From Cyanobacteria bacterium FACHB-63 (GTDB taxonomy: Bacteria; Cyanobacteriota; Cyanobacteriia; Leptolyngbyales; Leptolyngbyaceae), in assembly GCA_014695255.1 (NCBI GenBank), contig JACJNX010000047.1:1-56117 (forward strand): a stretch of DNA of 56,117 nucleotides, given 5' to 3'. Under the pieces are notes generated by a model. It saw only the letters and a list, made by a program, of their open reading frames with translations. It was not told the origin of the DNA and searched no databases. How positions within the stretch are numbered: the stretch's first letter is position 1; each line of letters starts with the position of its first letter. The position numbers and the translations under genes were made by a program. Below, piece by piece: positions 50,627 to 56,117 of the stretch.

Positions 50627-51364
50627 TTACCCTTTTAGGAATGAGACAGAGGCATCTACAATCTGAGAGAACAGAAGCGAGATTCCAATCCCACACATTA
50701 CGAATCCTGTTGATCGTAAGCTATCAAAAAATTGCGGTTGTCCAGAGCGTGTCAGCAACGTTTTGCTTAGTCTAGAGGCGATCGCTGCAATACCCAACTG
50801 AATGCTCGTGAAACCTAATAAATACGCGAATACGGCTGTCATCTGTGCCCCCACGATCGCTTCGCCGTAGGCATATCCATGACACACGCCAGCGATCGCA
50901 CTTAGGACAGTGATTGCTTTTAGATCATTCTTCTGAGTTAGCAGAAAGCCAAATAGCAGGATTGTTCCAGAGATCAATACTTCAATTCCTGGAAAATTGA
51001 AACCGAGAAGGTGTAACCCGGTTCCGCCCATTGCAGACACCATAAAAGCAATCAGGATTGCCGCTCCTTGTCGTTTTACGGCTGCTAATAGCCCGATTGT
51101 CACGATAAAAGCAAAGTGATCGACACCAATCAAGGGGTGCGCTAGTCCTGACAAAAATCCTTCCCAGAAGTTACTCGGCGTTTTTCCGTCCATTGGATGG
51201 TGCGCCATTGCTGGAGAAGTCATGAGTAGAACACTCATGGCGCTTAGAACAATGAACCCTTTTGTCTGAATGCTCTTTGTCTGAATGCTCTTTGTCTGAA
51301 TGCTCTTTGCCTGAATATTTGGTCGGAAAGCAGTAAATTGCGGAGCCTTGCCGTATTGAATCAT
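50627..51364 (-). CDS. HupE/UreJ family metal permease, last gene of the nitrile hydratase operon
   Basis: A 245-residue membrane protein of the HupE/UreJ nickel/cobalt uptake family. The mature N-terminus is HHPMDGKTP, and conserved histidines follow in GLAHPLIGVDHFAF in the first helix hairpin, with about six TM helices and GVCHGYAYGEA. The signal peptide (ending PAMA) is preceded by an odd n-region made of repeats, IQTKSIQTKSIQTK, encoded by a 15-bp tandem repeat. An internal ATG would bypass it. Next to a cobalt-type nitrile hydratase, cobalt is the more likely ion, but that is inferred. Confidence 0.88.
   Translation of the reverse strand: MIQYGKAPQFTAFRPNIQAKSIQTKSIQTKSIQTKGFIVLSAMSVLLMTSPAMAHHPMDGKTPSNFWEGFLSGLAHPLIGVDHFAFIVTIGLLAAVKRQGAAILIAFMVSAMGGTGLHLLGFNFPGIEVLISGTILLFGFLLTQKNDLKAITVLSAIAGVCHGYAYGEAIVGAQMTAVFAYLLGFTSIQLGIAAIASRLSKTLLTRSGQPQFFDSLRSTGFVMCGIGISLLFSQIVDASVSFLKG
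51261..51320 (-). repeat. 15-bp tandem repeat inside the HupE-type gene
   Basis: The unit TTTGTCTGAATGCTC (plus strand) occurs three times exactly (51261-51305), followed by a diverged fourth copy. Being 15 bases long it keeps frame and encodes repeated S-I-Q-T-K in the n-region of the signal peptide. The array looks recent because the copies are identical. Confidence 0.92.
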
Positions 51365-51399
51365 TCATCCCTCACAGATCATGTTGTTTAGTTGAAGAA

Positions 51400-51756
51400 C
51401 TAGAAGCAATCTTTTACTAATTCAGCCGTTCGCTGCTCTAGCTCTTCTGGTGAAATTAGATTCGTGTCTAATGCTAGTCGCTCTAGTGCCAACAACCAGC
51501 GCTGGTAATAATCCCAGTCTGGATCATCCTTACAATGCGTAGCTTCCCACTCTGCGATCGACGCGATCAATTGCTGGCGAAACTCTTCCCACTCGTAGTG
51601 ACCTTTTTTCGATAGCGCGATCGCCATGCCAAAAGCGCGTCCTTCCCAATGTCTTTCAAACAGCAGTTCTCCATTACTTCGAGGGGGCGCATTCGGATCA
51701 ACCAGCATACTGGCTGCCGCGAACTGTTCAAACTTGACGTGCATCTGATCCTCCAA
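51400..51756 (-). CDS. nitrile hydratase accessory/activator protein
   Basis: A 118-residue protein similar to nitrile hydratase accessory proteins, which are related to the N-terminal part of the beta subunit and help insert cobalt into the alpha subunit by subunit swapping in known systems. The ERHWEGRAFGMAIALSKKG block and WDYYQRWLLALERLAL near the end match that pattern. It begins 5 bases after the alpha gene stop, indicating tight co-translation. Metal-delivery function is family knowledge. Confidence 0.85.
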   Translation of the reverse strand: MEDQMHVKFEQFAAASMLVDPNAPPRSNGELLFERHWEGRAFGMAIALSKKGHYEWEEFRQQLIASIAEWEATHCKDDPDWDYYQRWLLALERLALDTNLISPEELEQRTAELVKDCF

Positions 51757-51761
51757 TGCTC

Positions 51762-52370
51762 TTAAGCGGGGACAATTACTTTCGCTGCACCTTGCATTGC
51801 TTCGGGAGTGACGATCGCAGCAAGCTGTTCTTCAGTCCAATCCTCGGTTCCTGTGGGGCGTTCTGGCAATACAAACCAGCGAATCTGAGCACTTGTATCC
51901 CAAACCCGAATTTCAGTGGATTCAGGAACGTCTAGACCAAACTCTTGCAATACTTTTCGAGGTTCGCGAATGGCCCTGGCTCGGAAGGTTGGATCTTTGA
52001 ACCAGTAGGGCGGCAATCCTAAAACGGGCCAAGGATAGCAAGAACACATCGTACAAACAATCAGATTATGAACTTCTGGTGTGTTCTCCACAGCTTTCAT
52101 GTGTTCGCCTTCTGCACCTGCCATACCCCGCGGGAAATTCATGGATGCGATCGCTGATGGCGTATCCTCTAATAGTTGCTGCTTAAACGCTGGATCAACC
52201 CAAGCTTTTGCCACAATTCTCGCGCCGTTAAAGGGTCCCATGTCCTTTTCAAAGAACTCAACAACCTTATCAACGGTTTCACTGGTGATGATTCCTTTTT
52301 CAATCAGGAGCGACTCCAATGCCCTCACACGAGCAGCACTATAAGTTTCGCGATCAATACTTTCAGTCAT
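51762..52370 (-). CDS. nthA: nitrile hydratase alpha subunit, cobalt type
   Basis: A 202-residue alpha subunit that binds the catalytic metal and hydrates nitriles to amides. The claw motif reads Cys106-Thr-Met-Cys109-Ser-Cys111 followed by YPWPVLGLPPYW. Thr at the second position marks the cobalt class (Ser would mark iron). The third position is Met, where most family members have Leu. The second and third cysteines are normally oxidised to sulfinate/sulfenate. The beta gene lies upstream by 30 bases, giving the beta-alpha order known from some cobalt enzymes. Confidence 0.95.
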   Translation of the reverse strand: MTESIDRETYSAARVRALESLLIEKGIITSETVDKVVEFFEKDMGPFNGARIVAKAWVDPAFKQQLLEDTPSAIASMNFPRGMAGAEGEHMKAVENTPEVHNLIVCTMCSCYPWPVLGLPPYWFKDPTFRARAIREPRKVLQEFGLDVPESTEIRVWDTSAQIRWFVLPERPTGTEDWTEEQLAAIVTPEAMQGAAKVIVPA

Positions 52371-52400
52371 GATTCCTGTCCTTTATCAGTTCCACAGAAG

Positions 52401-53120
52401 TTAAGCTGGATCTTCTAAATAAGCTTCAAAAATTTGCACATAGATCCACGTTTTCGGCTCAGTCAAATTGTCCCAAATCTCATGAGAGTCAAATTTGACG
52501 TTATAAATGGGCATCGGATCGCCCACGCCATCTCCCGTTGGAAAGTAATAGCTGTAGGCGCCTGGATAGACGACATCGACAACTCCTTTCTTGGTTCGTA
52601 AGTAGCCTGGGAGTTTGCAATGCTCCGTTGGCGGTGGGTTTCTGACAGTGATTACATCACCCAATTTGAACTTGGGCTGAATATCAACATCACACTTGGG
52701 CGAATCTCCAATCCGCAAATACTCGATCACTTGATCGTCGATCGCGGGTTCTCCCCCTTGCGGCAAGGGCGCGTCTGGCTTTTCTAGATAGGCGGTCGTT
52801 TTTGCATCAAGCTCCTCTTTGGAAACATAGCCTGATTCGACAAAAAAACCAGAAATGCCACCCAACCACTTTTCATAGTAGCGGTACTTGAAATAGTCAA
52901 AGGGATTCATCCCTTCAGCACCTTTACGCAGGTGTCCCCAAGTCCAAAAGCTCTTAAACCGAGTTGGGACAGCTTTAACTGCATCTAGATGGTTACTTAA
53001 TCCCATCATGGCAACGTGAATGCCAAAGATGCGTTTTTCCCAGGGTTGAACAAATACCCGTTTTTCAAAGCTAGAAGGGGCTAATCCTTCAATTCCACCA
53101 ATGTAGTGCTGTAGTTTCAT
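52401..53120 (-). CDS. nthB: nitrile hydratase beta subunit
   Basis: A 239-residue beta subunit. The N-terminus MKLQHYIGGIEGL, the KRIFGIHVAMMGL helix, YYEKWLGGIS, and the SH3-like C-terminal domain (LGDVITVRNPPPTEHCKLPGYLR) are typical. It forms the heterodimer and part of the active-site tunnel with alpha. It follows the DUF1097 gene by 36 bases. Confidence 0.95.
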   Translation of the reverse strand: MKLQHYIGGIEGLAPSSFEKRVFVQPWEKRIFGIHVAMMGLSNHLDAVKAVPTRFKSFWTWGHLRKGAEGMNPFDYFKYRYYEKWLGGISGFFVESGYVSKEELDAKTTAYLEKPDAPLPQGGEPAIDDQVIEYLRIGDSPKCDVDIQPKFKLGDVITVRNPPPTEHCKLPGYLRTKKGVVDVVYPGAYSYYFPTGDGVGDPMPIYNVKFDSHEIWDNLTEPKTWIYVQIFEAYLEDPA

Positions 53121-53156
53121 TTTGCTCCTGCTCTGTGTGAATAATTCACGGCTTGT

Positions 53157-53672
53157 CTAAACGCGAGTTTGCTCCCTTGTGGGAACGCCTTGTGTCGTCA
53201 TCGCCTCGCCCCACATTTCCGATAAATAACCAAACACTCCGCCTAAAATCATCGCTGCTGCTGCAACGAGTGCTGGATTCTCTAGCTCTGGGGTTGTAAT
53301 GGCTTTGCCTGTCGCGATCGTGGTTCCAACCGTGGAAGCAAACCCCCAAACGATCGCCGGAATTGCTCTCAGTAAGGGAACTTTAGAAGCTTGCACCATT
53401 GCCGCACTACCAAGTCCAACACAAATCGCAGCAATTAAAGAATTACTTCCCAAAGCTGCGATCGTTAGAAGCGTGAGAGATGCGATCGCGATTCCCGTTA
53501 GATTAGACGCAATGCTCTGTTTAAGCCCTGAAGACTTACCTCCCAGGATAAAGAACGATGCCCAAGCAATAAATGTTACCCACACGGGGACAAGAATAAG
53601 TGTCGCTGTGAGATAAGTATCGATCGCACCTAGCACCCCAATACTGACACTATACGCATCTAGCTTTTTCAT
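53157..53672 (-). CDS. DUF1097 family membrane protein
   Basis: A 171-residue integral membrane protein with about five or six hydrophobic helices, matching DUF1097 (YcdZ-like) by the small-residue-rich helices and FILGGKSSGLKQSIASNLTG and YLSEMWGEAM segments. Function is unknown. It lies 47 bases after cobW and 36 bases before nthB, so it is clearly inside the operon. Uptake or release of a nitrile, amide or ammonium would fit the context, but that is inference. Confidence 0.75.
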   Translation of the reverse strand: MKKLDAYSVSIGVLGAIDTYLTATLILVPVWVTFIAWASFFILGGKSSGLKQSIASNLTGIAIASLTLLTIAALGSNSLIAAICVGLGSAAMVQASKVPLLRAIPAIVWGFASTVGTTIATGKAITTPELENPALVAAAAMILGGVFGYLSEMWGEAMTTQGVPTREQTRV

Positions 53673-53719
53673 ATCATCAGATCCTACTGATAGATGAGGT
53701 TATGTTCTTGCTGCAAAAT

Positions 53720-54679
53720 CTAGACCAGACATGATTGAAAGCCGCTTTTGAGTTCTGCTTCTGGCAACTCTCGCCCGATAAACACCATCTCATTCCTCCG
53801 CAGTTCGTCAGACTTCCAGGGTCGCCCCGGTCTGCCGTCTAACAACATATGCACCCCCTGAAGTACAAACCGCCGATCCTCATCGTCCACATTCAAAATG
53901 CCTTTCATCCGAAAGATGTTTTGACCTTGAATCTGGACGAGTTGATTTAACCAGGTTGTGAGTTTGTCGCTGTTTACAACCCCAGGCTCAACGATCGAGA
54001 CTGAGAAAATAGTATCGTCATGCTCATGCGCTGATTCGTTGAGAAACTCTGGATCAATTGATAAAGCATTTTTGAGGTCAAATGCTTTCACTCCTAGAAT
54101 CGAACTGATCTCAAGATTGCAGTTGTGAGTCCGGTAGAGTTTAGCAAAGGCATTTACTGACCGAATTCGCTGTTCTAACGCTTCGAGCTGTTGAGCAGAA
54201 ACAAGATCAATTTTGTTAAGCAGAATGACATCCGCAAACGCAATTTGTTCTTGAGCTTCATTGCTATCCCAATGCTCCCAAATGTATTTCGCATCAACCA
54301 CTGTGACAACAGCATCTAACTGCGTTTTAGATCGCATTGTTTCATCAACAAAAAAGGATTGAATGACCGGAGCTGGATCAGCTAATCCAGTCGTTTCAAT
54401 CACAATGTGATCAAACTTCTCGCGCTTCTCCATTAAGTTACCAACAATCCGAATTAAATCCCCCCGAACCGTACAACAAATGCAGCCATTGTTCATTTCT
54501 AAAATTTCTTCATCAGCATCCACCACAAGCTGACTATCAATTCCCACGTCCCCAAATTCATTCACAATCACAGCAACTTTTTTGCCGTGTTCATGATGCA
54601 GAAGGTGATTCAGCAGTGTTGTTTTGCCTGACCCAAGATAACCAGTAATGACTGTAACAGGAATAGAGCGACTCAGCAT
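53720..54679 (-). CDS. CobW/P47K family metallochaperone GTPase
   Basis: A 319-residue GTPase of the COG0523 group. Walker A is GYLGSGKT (residues 13-20), the metal-binding CxCC is CICC (Cys66-69), NKID provides guanine specificity, and a C-terminal CobW_C domain follows. Relatives beside nitrile hydratase act as metal activators (P47K type); others handle zinc or cobalamin cobalt. The C-terminus lacks a long His-rich stretch. Context favours cobalt delivery to the alpha subunit. Confidence 0.92.
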   Translation of the reverse strand: MLSRSIPVTVITGYLGSGKTTLLNHLLHHEHGKKVAVIVNEFGDVGIDSQLVVDADEEILEMNNGCICCTVRGDLIRIVGNLMEKREKFDHIVIETTGLADPAPVIQSFFVDETMRSKTQLDAVVTVVDAKYIWEHWDSNEAQEQIAFADVILLNKIDLVSAQQLEALEQRIRSVNAFAKLYRTHNCNLEISSILGVKAFDLKNALSIDPEFLNESAHEHDDTIFSVSIVEPGVVNSDKLTTWLNQLVQIQGQNIFRMKGILNVDDEDRRFVLQGVHMLLDGRPGRPWKSDELRRNEMVFIGRELPEAELKSGFQSCLV

Positions 54680-54881
54680 AATTCACCGCGATTTCTACGA
54701 TTGATCTGTGTTGAGCAATGAGATTGCTTTAGAAAAATTCTGTCTATATCTTTGATTCGATCGAGCTTGAGTTTATTAGTCTCACTAATGCCCCTGAAGA
54801 AAAGTAGTCCTTGAGACAAATTGAAACTAACTTGCTTATAGTCTTGAGAAGCAAGCGAAATGATCGATCGAGGGAACTGCA

Positions 54882-55142
54882 TCAATGCCCGATCATCCAG
54901 GGTCGTCCTCCTGTGTGGCTTCTGTTTTTTGGAGCCGGAGGCTCTGTTTCGCGTTTAACCAGTTGTGGCTCTGGGTTTTCGCGCTTCAGCCGCAGCACAC
55001 CCGACAACACAGCCGGAGGAGAAAAAATTCGTTTGGCGGGAGCTTCGCAGGTCGGACAATCAGCCGAAGACGTGGATTCAGCAATCGATCGCCACACATC
55101 AAAAATGCCACAGCTCTCACAGCGAAATTCATATAAGGGCAT
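54882..55142 (-). CDS. FmdB-type zinc-ribbon protein
   Basis: An 86-residue protein with the FmdB zinc ribbon: MPLYEFRCESCG, then ADCPTCEAPAKRIFSPP (Cys8, 11, 29, 32). The C-terminal half is a basic, proline-rich tail. The frame opens three codons upstream, but the ATG at 55142 gives the conserved MPLYEF start. FmdB was named as a putative regulator beside formamidase (fmdA), and here it follows the fmdA-like gene by about 70 bases. Regulation of this operon is plausible but unproven. Confidence 0.85.
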   Translation of the reverse strand: MPLYEFRCESCGIFDVWRSIAESTSSADCPTCEAPAKRIFSPPAVLSGVLRLKRENPEPQLVKRETEPPAPKNRSHTGGRPWMIGH

Positions 55143-55210
55143 ACCGTTCATCTCTTGCTACATGAACAATTAGGGAATGAGAACCACCCCCGTTTAATCA
55201 AATCTGTTGG

Positions 55211-56026
55211 CTACACAGGTAAGATTGGCTGATCAAAAATCCCTGTTGGAATAGCAACCGTACAACAGGCATTTGGAATGTCTACAATGCCGCTCACTCT
55301 GCCTTCGACTGGAGCACAACTGAGCAATAGATAGGCTTGCTCTCCGGTGAAGCCAAATTTCTTCAGGTACTCGATCGCATTAAGACAAGCGCGACGATAT
55401 GCAATGTGAACATCCATAAAATACTGCTTGCCTGTAAATTCATCGACTGAAATCCCTTCAAATACAAGGTATTCAGAGTAATGTGGTTCAACGGGGCCTG
55501 GCTTAAAGATTGGATTGCTCATGCCGTACTTATCCATCCCGCCTTTAATAATGTCTACGTGCAGATCGATAAAGCCAGACATCTCGATCGCACCACAGAA
55601 CGAAATCTCTCCATCGCCTTGCGAGAAGTGAATATCGCCCATCGAAAGCTTTGCCCCTTCCACATAGACCGGGAAGTAAATGCGAGTGCCACGCGACAGA
55701 TTCTTGATATCACAATTGCCGCCATGCTCGCGAGGCGGAACGGTTCTAGCACCTTCTGCGGCGATGCGATCGAAGTCGGATGCTGCCACTTGCCCTAAGA
55801 TTGCATTCTTCGGATTCGGTAAAGCAGCTAACGTTGCCAAATCGCCTTTGATTTCTGCTCCGTAGGTGCGGCGATCGGGCTGCGACTGCATGAGTTCTGC
55901 TTCCCGCTTGTTCCACGTCGCCAACAGTTCATGCGATGGCGCACAGCCAATTAATCCAGGGTGAGTAATGCCTGCAAACCGCACACCCGGAATGTGCCGT
56001 GAACCTGAGTACAGGACAAAAACTTG
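55211..56026 (-). pseudogene. fmdA: formamidase/acetamidase, N-terminally truncated
   Basis: The frame encodes the C-terminal two-thirds of an FmdA/AmdA amidase: RHIPGVRFAGITHPG, PPREHGGNCDIKNLSRGTR, GDIHFSQGDGEISFCGAIE, and VSGIVDIPNACCTVAIP. Intact enzymes run about 400 residues; only about 257 remain from the GTG at 55984. Homology continues 14 codons upstream of that (to about 56026) and then hits an in-frame TAG at 56029-56027. No N-terminal formamidase sequence is visible in the last 90 bases of the window, which instead carry an inverted repeat. The conserved acidic and metal-site residues of the missing part are absent, so activity is doubtful. Confidence 0.7.
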
Positions 56027-56044
56027 CTAAGTAAGAGTAGGAAA

Positions 56045-56083
56045 GGGTTTCATGCAAATAGCAAATTTGACAGTATGAAACCC
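56045..56083. repeat. inverted repeat next to the formamidase break
   Basis: GGGTTTCAT (56045-56053) and ATGAAACCC (56075-56083) form 9-bp perfect arms around 21 bases. It lies 16 bases beyond the stop that truncates the formamidase frame, at the point where homology is lost, and might be the end of an inserted element or part of a regulatory hairpin. Confidence 0.6.
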
Positions 56084-56117
56084 AATGTCTCAAATTACTC
56101 AATTGCGGCGCACATTG

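Follow-up and report, generated by a model that had tools for sequence, protein, structure and literature searches.

Nitrile hydratases (NHases) are known as cobalt and as iron enzymes, and a motif of the alpha subunit marks the metal, CTLCSCY for cobalt and CSLCSCT for iron (PMC2667541, PMC2770081). Most clusters of the cobalt type (Co-type) have the gene order beta–alpha–activator (PMC7193024), and the clusters resembling that of Rhodococcus rhodochrous J1 combine this order and the Co motif with a cobalt transporter of their own (PMC7193024; for NhlF PMC7689651). The Co-type enzymes studied so far use a GTP-independent activator (PMC9164220), whereas published accounts have the COG0523 GTPase Nha3 serving the iron-type (Fe-type) NHase (PMC2770081). 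In addition, NHase genes occur beside amide hydrolase genes, as in the RAST subsystem "amidase clustered with urea and nitrile hydratase functions" (PMC7142416). Here we analyze an NHase locus of the cyanobacterium Cyanobacteria bacterium FACHB-63 which lies on a contig of 56,117 nucleotides, studied as a whole (the window) and being one of the 179 contigs of the 7.23 Mb genome. The J1 cluster is made up of beta, alpha, NhlE-type activator and the cobalt permease NhlF; compared with it, the locus adds a COG0523 GTPase and a membrane protein of the family DUF1097, and a HupE permease replaces the NiCoT transporter. Clusters of Co-type NHase and of NHase with amidase are already known, and the present one stands out by the unexpected GTPase and the NHase-linked DUF1097 protein.

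We consider it rather likely, from the sequence comparisons described below, that the six genes at positions 50627–54679 form a cassette for making and supplying a cobalt NHase and that the cassette neighbours a formamidase gene, fmdA, split by an insertion sequence (IS). HupE would import cobalt, the COG0523 GTPase together with the beta-like accessory protein would load it into the alpha subunit, and NthA/NthB would hydrate the nitrile to the amide, with the DUF1097 protein probably carrying substrate or product across the membrane. An amide hydrolase would then free ammonia, unrelated ones lying beside the cassette in different bacteria.

The conservation of this arrangement was followed in the best 80 of 87 relatives, which were divided, after seeing the data, into 45 close and 35 distant NHase loci; the two groups also differ in the identity of their alpha subunit to that of the window (at least 63% versus at most 57%). 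The close loci contain the accessory gene in 45, the GTPase gene in 43 (the other two are cut by a contig end), HupE in 33 and DUF1097 in 23 cases, whereas the distant loci contain no GTPase, no DUF1097 and a single HupE, the zeros describing this list, which missed closer rhizobial NHases, and not all other NHases. With a stricter GTPase pattern the counts are 42 of 45 and 0 of 35. The alpha subunits of the window and of 44 close loci (that of L062 is too short) form one branch with a support of 100/100. The commonest gene order, GTPase–DUF1097–nthB–nthA–accessory–HupE, is found in 14 loci and, preceded by a second set of NHase genes, in two others. As other orders also occur, for example HupE first in two Granulosicoccus loci, the association survives rearrangement. 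The first-pass annotation had proposed to look for its gene order in relatives; CobW-type GTPase, nthBA and accessory gene do recur together, and DUF1097 and HupE often accompany them.

Other cyanobacteria possess the cassette as well, and so do plasmids of proteobacteria. Nearly all of the 43 GTPase-bearing loci pair the GTPase with a Co-type alpha subunit, and likewise the COG0523 pattern is present in 12 of 14 NHase regions from named plasmids, which were picked by us. The two without it are from Klebsiella and Methylocystis; the Klebsiella cluster has the order alpha–beta and is a different cluster type. The plasmid regions of Azospirillum and Bosea have the GTPase and no DUF1097, and plasmid pAQ4 of Picosynechococcus PCC 7002 carries an intact cassette that agrees with the window in all six genes and in their order. 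Judged by these neighbourhoods, the real unit appears to be COG0523 GTPase–DUF1097–nthB–nthA–accessory–HupE, conserved across phyla.

Within the cyanobacteria the NHase is rare, as the first-pass annotation had supposed. In a sample of 386 cyanobacterial genomes, to which the genome counts given for FmdA, FmdB and DUF1097 also refer where no other sample is named, an alpha subunit of NHase length was detected in six, in one of these in two pieces, and ten more genomes gave only short leader-like matches. NHases have already been reported from cyanobacteria (PMC10098168, PMC4509649), and the cluster has been called uncommon there (PMC4509649). Two of the relatives stand out. In Prochlorococcus sp. 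AG-355-N18 (L053, a record of ∼1.7 Mb) the order is DUF1097–nthB–nthA–accessory–GTPase, with the NHase on a long branch. The ammonia oxidizer Nitrosomonas halophila Nm1 (L023) has an alpha subunit 84% identical to that of the window and placed inside the cyanobacterial branch, which reflects either transfer or contamination.

The alpha motif of the window, VCTMCSCY, has the threonine and the tyrosine of the Co-type motif, with leucine replaced by methionine. Among 53 alpha ORFs (open reading frames; second copies included) 39 have CTLCSCY, 13 have CTMCSCY and one has CSLCSCY; the motif CTLCSCY, which has been called strictly conserved, is therefore departed from in the window and 12 relatives and, in another way, in L045. 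The best PDB matches of NthA are cobalt-type NHases, and alpha, beta and accessory protein all score above the cut-off of their NCBIfam equivalogs (TIGR01323, TIGR03888 and TIGR03889). Taken together, the motif, the order beta–alpha–activator and the TIGR03889 accessory protein support the cobalt NHase of the first-pass annotation, and we infer that the enzyme is of the cobalt type. Thiocyanate hydrolase, whose gamma subunit is homologous to NHase alpha, was considered and rejected, as the gamma-subunit equivalog gives 186.1 against a cut-off of 291.45 and the beta subunit is unsplit.

A second alpha subunit with a Co motif lies beside the first in nine relatives (L013:3628-5417, L014:3704-5388, L037, L038, L041, L043, L046, L047 and L049), and nine of the second alphas form a branch of their own. 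In L013 the beta subunit of the second NHase is split into an N- and a C-terminal gene in the manner of thiocyanate hydrolase, and the alpha is an NHase by NCBIfam.

The GTPase has a CICC motif and the G3E domains, and the nearest solved chain is YjiA from Escherichia coli. It resembles the Nha3/P44K/P47K proteins of Fe-type clusters in being a CXCC-bearing G3E GTPase encoded beside an NHase (PMC2770081). In contrast to these clusters, however, the partner alpha subunit carries CTMCSCY and not CSLCSCT, a beta-like accessory gene is present too, the order is beta–alpha and the GTPase gene lies upstream. No report of a COG0523 GTPase with a Co-type NHase was found in the excerpts of the literature searched. 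The CobW of B12 synthesis was tried as an identity and dismissed with a score of 229.1 against the equivalog cut-off of 332.1; the longest histidine run is two, whereas a run of at least four marks the B12-type CobW (PMC2770081).

It could be argued that the GTPase is a mere neighbour of the Co-type NHase and serves another metal or enzyme, be it in zinc homeostasis, with iron as Nha3, or in B12 synthesis. The zinc preference of YjiA from Salmonella (PMC7895991), the service of Nha3 to an Fe-type enzyme and the GTP-independent activators of the studied Co-type enzymes would fit such a role. However, a mere neighbour is difficult to reconcile with the near-constant presence of the gene in the close loci, in cyanobacteria as well as in proteobacteria, and its absence from the distant loci listed, nor would it be expected to keep company with the accessory gene in all 45 loci and with a cobalt/nickel transporter in many. 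Moreover, a tree separates 55 GTPases of such cassettes from four paralogues (support 98/79, with long outgroup branches), and for B12 the failed CobW match applies. For these reasons we regard the explanation as unlikely and prefer a GTPase which would act on the NHase itself.

HupE is assigned by PF04955 and by the motif HPXXGXDH, present as HPLIGVDH, and no second member of the family was detected in the genome; a PDB sequence search gave nothing for HupE. In other cassettes the same slot is occupied by the unrelated transporters CbtBA, CbiM or NiCoT. In eleven of the 14 plasmid regions the accessory gene is immediately followed by a cobalt/nickel transporter, namely CbtB–CbtA (6), a CbiM-type protein (2), HupE (2) or NiCoT (1), one of each type having been confirmed by Pfam and the remainder being taken from the record annotation. 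No transporter was seen in Gloeocapsa PCC 7428, Bosea and Methylocystis, the record of the latter being unannotated over the NHase; of the 12 regions with the GTPase, ten carry a transporter, and the eleventh region with a transporter is that of Klebsiella. Because unrelated and apparently interchangeable cobalt/nickel transporters occupy one slot, there is strong though indirect reason to assume that HupE carries cobalt here, in agreement with the cobalt supply postulated in the first-pass annotation. A cobalt role of HupE has been reported for Synechocystis (PMC4284471, PMC7689651). In six plasmid cassettes (L206, L208, L210, L212, L214 and L215) the transporter gene or genes are followed by a gene for a GlxA-type regulator; in its stead, an Lrp-like gene is found in 8 of the 45 other loci, for instance upstream of the cassette in L041.

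DUF1097 is present in two of the 386 cyanobacterial genomes, in both within an NHase locus. On plasmids, all 48 records with DUF1097 among 60 listed of 179 NHase records have it near the NHase alpha gene, the alpha match starting 1.2–1.5 kb away; the other 12 of the 60 are without DUF1097, and 41 of the 48 are from Rhizobium, many of them closely related. The family also exists outside NHase organisms, as a member in E. coli, taken as a control, demonstrates. The literature searched, again in excerpts, gave no report of DUF1097 with NHase. AlphaFold predicts six helices, with a predicted local distance difference test score (pLDDT) of 74.6 for the window protein and 88.5 for its homologue in L036, for which three of five models reach 55 or below. 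VIA-align places ALMT first for both models; the alignment to AtALMT1 has a Z of 9.0, a root mean square deviation of 3.8 and 150 aligned positions. With Foldseek the similarity of the DUF1097 model to ALMT is not significant (E 0.99); a PDB sequence search yielded nothing convincing. A six-helix pore fold like that of the ALMT anion channels may be taken as a weak lead. We suggest that the protein probably moves a substrate or a product of the NHase.

Cassettes lacking DUF1097 frequently have another gene. A gene similar to FGE-sulfatase/PvdO with a Tat-like signal is found in 17 of the 45 related loci (e.g. L028:5104-6003). All 17 belong to the 22 loci that lack DUF1097, and the two genes never share a locus (p 2e-8, without correction for kinship). 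The tree needs ∼5 switches between the two genes, of which the well-supported branches force only one. A function of the FGE-like protein as a cysteine-oxidizing NHase maturase was considered and is disfavoured, since no cysteine occurs in columns at least 90% alike (16 rows) and since the protein has an apparent Tat signal.

Upstream of the cassette, the first-pass annotation had placed an intact formamidase gene. In the window, however, the fmdA ORF is a 3′ fragment covering positions 140–373 of the 373 of the Pfam family FmdA_AmdA and scoring 418.7 against the FmdA equivalog cut-off of 500. The missing N-terminal third was found on another contig of the same genome, C93, at 116–517 in the genome search and running from 535 down to 115 by sequence; in the search of the sampled genomes for the FmdA equivalog the two pieces score 437.2 (window) and 226.1 (C93). 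Both contigs terminate in IS ends (C93:1-114 and the last 113 bases of the window). Further copies of these ends begin the contigs C138 and C107, and C48 contains a diverged copy in which both are present. The two fmdA–IS junctions share a stretch of 9 bases, GTTCACGGC, the flanks on C107 and C138 being different from each other. When joined at this duplication, the flanks give one open frame of 401 amino acids which aligns end to end and gapless with an uninterrupted FmdA, that of Leptolyngbya sp. Heron Island J (L036), the two parts being 89% and 91% identical to it. Thus, fmdA is interrupted in the assembly of this genome.

By its terminal sequences and the 9-bp target duplication the element probably belongs to the IS4-like ISSysp2 group; its ends and the C-terminus of its transposase resemble ISSysp2, which is annotated as IS4-like on pAQ4 of PCC 7002. 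Of the transposase of this copy only the last residues are present on C93; they end in LLSCT, like those of ISSysp2. A tblastn search with the ISSysp2 transposase matched the copy on C48 and neither the short C93 nor the window end. The complete IS of this copy is absent from the assembly, which contains only its ends. The intact pAQ4 cassette (L207) also has a copy of ISSysp2, the same kind of IS, a short way downstream of HupE, and no fmdAB is annotated there in the 13.7 kb read. Because the IS splits fmdA, nitriles probably reach the amide only in this genome, unless another amidase steps in.

fmdA and fmdB themselves form an independent pair, as far as gene adjacency tells. FmdA, counted at an equivalog E of 1e-60 or better and hence excluding weaker family members, occurs in 27 of the 386 genomes including this one, where it is in two pieces, and in all 26 others FmdB directly adjoins it. 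A search for FmdB found 31 genomes, which are these 26, the present one and four with weak matches and no FmdA. In methylotrophs, too, fmdA is directly followed by fmdB; the window differs from the cyanobacterial pairs in that its fmdA is interrupted and lies beside an NHase cassette. FmdB, whose zinc-ribbon model is matched above its cut-off (Table 1), is the partner of FmdA and stands outside the metal chain. To follow the linkage with NHase, 26 NHase genomes from 28 of the 45 loci (one dropped out and two share a genome) were searched. FmdA exceeds the cut-off in 14 of them and lies within 20 kb of the NHase on the same contig in two (G403/L036 at ∼4 kb on the opposite strand, G401 at ∼15 kb), where 0.09 would be expected by chance (p 0.004). 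The linkage is thus rare yet above chance expectation, and the conserved operon assumed for fmdA/fmdB is not borne out. An enrichment of FmdA in NHase genomes (14/26 vs 25/380, p 2e-9) was discarded, as the samples were drawn differently and kinship is uncorrected; within the single 386-genome sample the numbers are 2/6 vs 25/380 (p 0.06).

Table 1. Features of the NHase locus in the window; L, C: relatives' loci and contigs of this genome
Feature	Position	Strand	Evidence
hupE: HupE/UreJ-family permease, putative cobalt importer	50627..51364	-	PF04955 117.9 bits; motif HPLIGVDH
NHase accessory protein of the P14K/NhlE type; homologue of beta N-terminus	51400..51744	-	TIGR03889 76.3 vs cut-off 46
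nthA: nitrile hydratase alpha, Co-type motif VCTMCSCY	51762..52370	-	TIGR01323 302.6 vs 249.85
nthB: nitrile hydratase beta, unsplit	52401..53120	-	TIGR03888 207.4 vs 152.2; both Pfam beta domains
NHase-linked membrane protein of family DUF1097 with six predicted helices	53157..53672	-	PF06496 120.8 bits
COG0523 (CobW/YjiA-type) GTPase, CICC motif; putative NHase metallochaperone	53720..54679	-	PF02492 213.3, PF07683 84.4 bits
202-bp fmdB–GTPase gap; candidate promoter region of six-gene unit	54680..54881	-	alignment with L013/L014
fmdB: FmdB-family zinc-ribbon protein, fmdA partner	54882..55151	-	TIGR02605 56.6 vs 31.3
fmdA (formamidase) 3′ part; 5′ part at C93:115-535, same genome	55211..56004	-	Pfam, NCBIfam, contig search
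9-bp target-site duplication GTTCACGGC	55996..56004	-	identical 9 bases at both IS junctions
IS4-like (ISSysp2-type) insertion sequence end; contig stops here	56005..56117	-	identical to C107:1-113

Assigned with Pfam and NCBIfam models and their cut-offs, all eight ORFs lie on the minus strand at 50627–56004 and match the families named in the first-pass annotation, the end coordinate of which, 56026, falls within the IS. From upstream to downstream the intergenic gaps are 59 (FmdA–FmdB), 202 (FmdB–CobW), 47 (CobW–DUF1097), 36 (DUF1097–NthB), 30 (NthB–NthA), 17 (NthA–accessory) and 35 bp (accessory–HupE), the accessory gene starting with the ATG at 51744, which has GGAGG in front. The 202-bp gap makes a single operon of eight genes doubtful and speaks for a six-gene unit instead. 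Parts of it align with L013 and L014, whose GTPases stand next to that of the window in the tree. As these parts are conserved although both relatives carry other genes upstream, namely an isochorismatase-like hydrolase and the second NHase with split beta, a promoter is suggested in the gap, upstream of the GTPase gene. A count of promoter-like and terminator-like sites was uninformative either way, since they are no commoner in the region than in shuffled sequences (6 vs 8.3 and 6 vs 7.4, respectively). An exact NtcA-type site, GTA-N8-TAC, is absent from the 420 bases upstream of the GTPase gene; it was found in 4 of 13 relatives searched at differing positions, so no site is conserved.

An intact eight-gene operon which in this strain converts nitriles to acid and ammonia, as the first-pass annotation had it, is thus highly unlikely. 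The common strand of all eight ORFs, the closeness of FmdA and NHase here and in two of 14 others against the small chance expectation, and an acetamidase/formamidase-family gene just upstream of the cassette in Caballeronia zhejiangensis would be in keeping with it. Yet the latter gene scores 65.3 against the FmdA cut-off of 500 and is not the equivalog, fmdAB is an independent pair in all other FmdA genomes, two relatives that have no fmdAB share parts of the gap after fmdB, and an IS lies in fmdA. We rather suggest that in this lineage fmdA–fmdB came to lie upstream of the six-gene cassette and that the IS4-like element then split fmdA.

This does not make an amide step foreign to the cassette. 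In C. zhejiangensis an amino-acid ABC transporter precedes the amidase gene; in Gloeocapsa PCC 7428 amidases flank the cassette on both sides, the Klebsiella cluster has one amidase, and isochorismatase-like hydrolases are found in 12 of the 45 loci (one member was checked with Pfam). The window differs from the amidase-clustered NHases in that its amide hydrolase is of the FmdA family and interrupted. Since unrelated amide hydrolases recur beside the cassettes, the conversion of nitrile via amide to acid is supported as the putative purpose of the cassette. The amide-hydrolase partner of the first-pass annotation is hence plausible, and its complete two-step pathway is not supported for this genome. 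ABC transporters lie beside the cassettes of several relatives, and one of the amino-acid type is located upstream of fmdA on C93. In Arthrospira PCC 8005, nthA, nthB and fmdA have been reported to be up on nitrogen depletion (PMC4509649). A role in nitrogen scavenging would be in line with these observations. On the other hand, the adjacent amide step is broken here with the NHase core left intact, and many homologous cassettes reside on plasmids of plant-associated bacteria, as one would expect if the cassette detoxified nitriles stemming from aldoximes, cyanogenic or man-made compounds. Detoxification alone would explain neither the recurrence of unrelated amide-hydrolase families nor the ABC transporters nor the Arthrospira response, and we judge it improbable compared with nitrogen scavenging.

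Several points weigh against the cassette as a dedicated cobalt system with a split fmdA. HupE-family proteins transport nickel too, and 12 of the 45 close loci are without HupE in the stretch examined. A cobalamin riboswitch or other structured RNA was not detected, as the sole Rfam match of the window at the gathering score is a 5S rRNA at its opposite end and as nine relatives gave no match. The IS junction is known from the assembly alone, and mixed chromosome copies are possible. By its gene numbers, fmdA is not beside nthA in Arthrospira PCC 8005 (PMC4509649). Finally, the zinc preference of YjiA discussed above leaves the delivery of cobalt by the GTPase as something we infer.

Tentatively, and with more doubt than conviction, we propose a widespread group of Co-type NHases that mature with two chaperones together, the known beta-like activator and a dedicated COG0523 GTPase passing on cobalt from the importer encoded alongside. 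DUF1097, its six-helix pore fold being possibly similar to ALMT anion channels, would be a carrier dedicated to the nitrile, the amide or the acid, and in other cassettes the Tat-exported FGE-like protein would take its place. If true, such a group would conflict with the published division, which reserves the GTPase for Fe-type enzymes. If the GTPase helps to load cobalt, the rule that assigns the GTPase to iron and the small activator to cobalt needs revision, and co-expression of the GTPase might improve industrial NHase biocatalysts. The conserved linkage with NHase is also a functional lead for DUF1097. PCC 7002 needs external B12 (PMC4284471), and the NHase may therefore be one of the few uses of free cobalt in this organism. 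The cassette on pAQ4 makes cobalt supply and the use of organic nitriles testable in a standard laboratory cyanobacterium.

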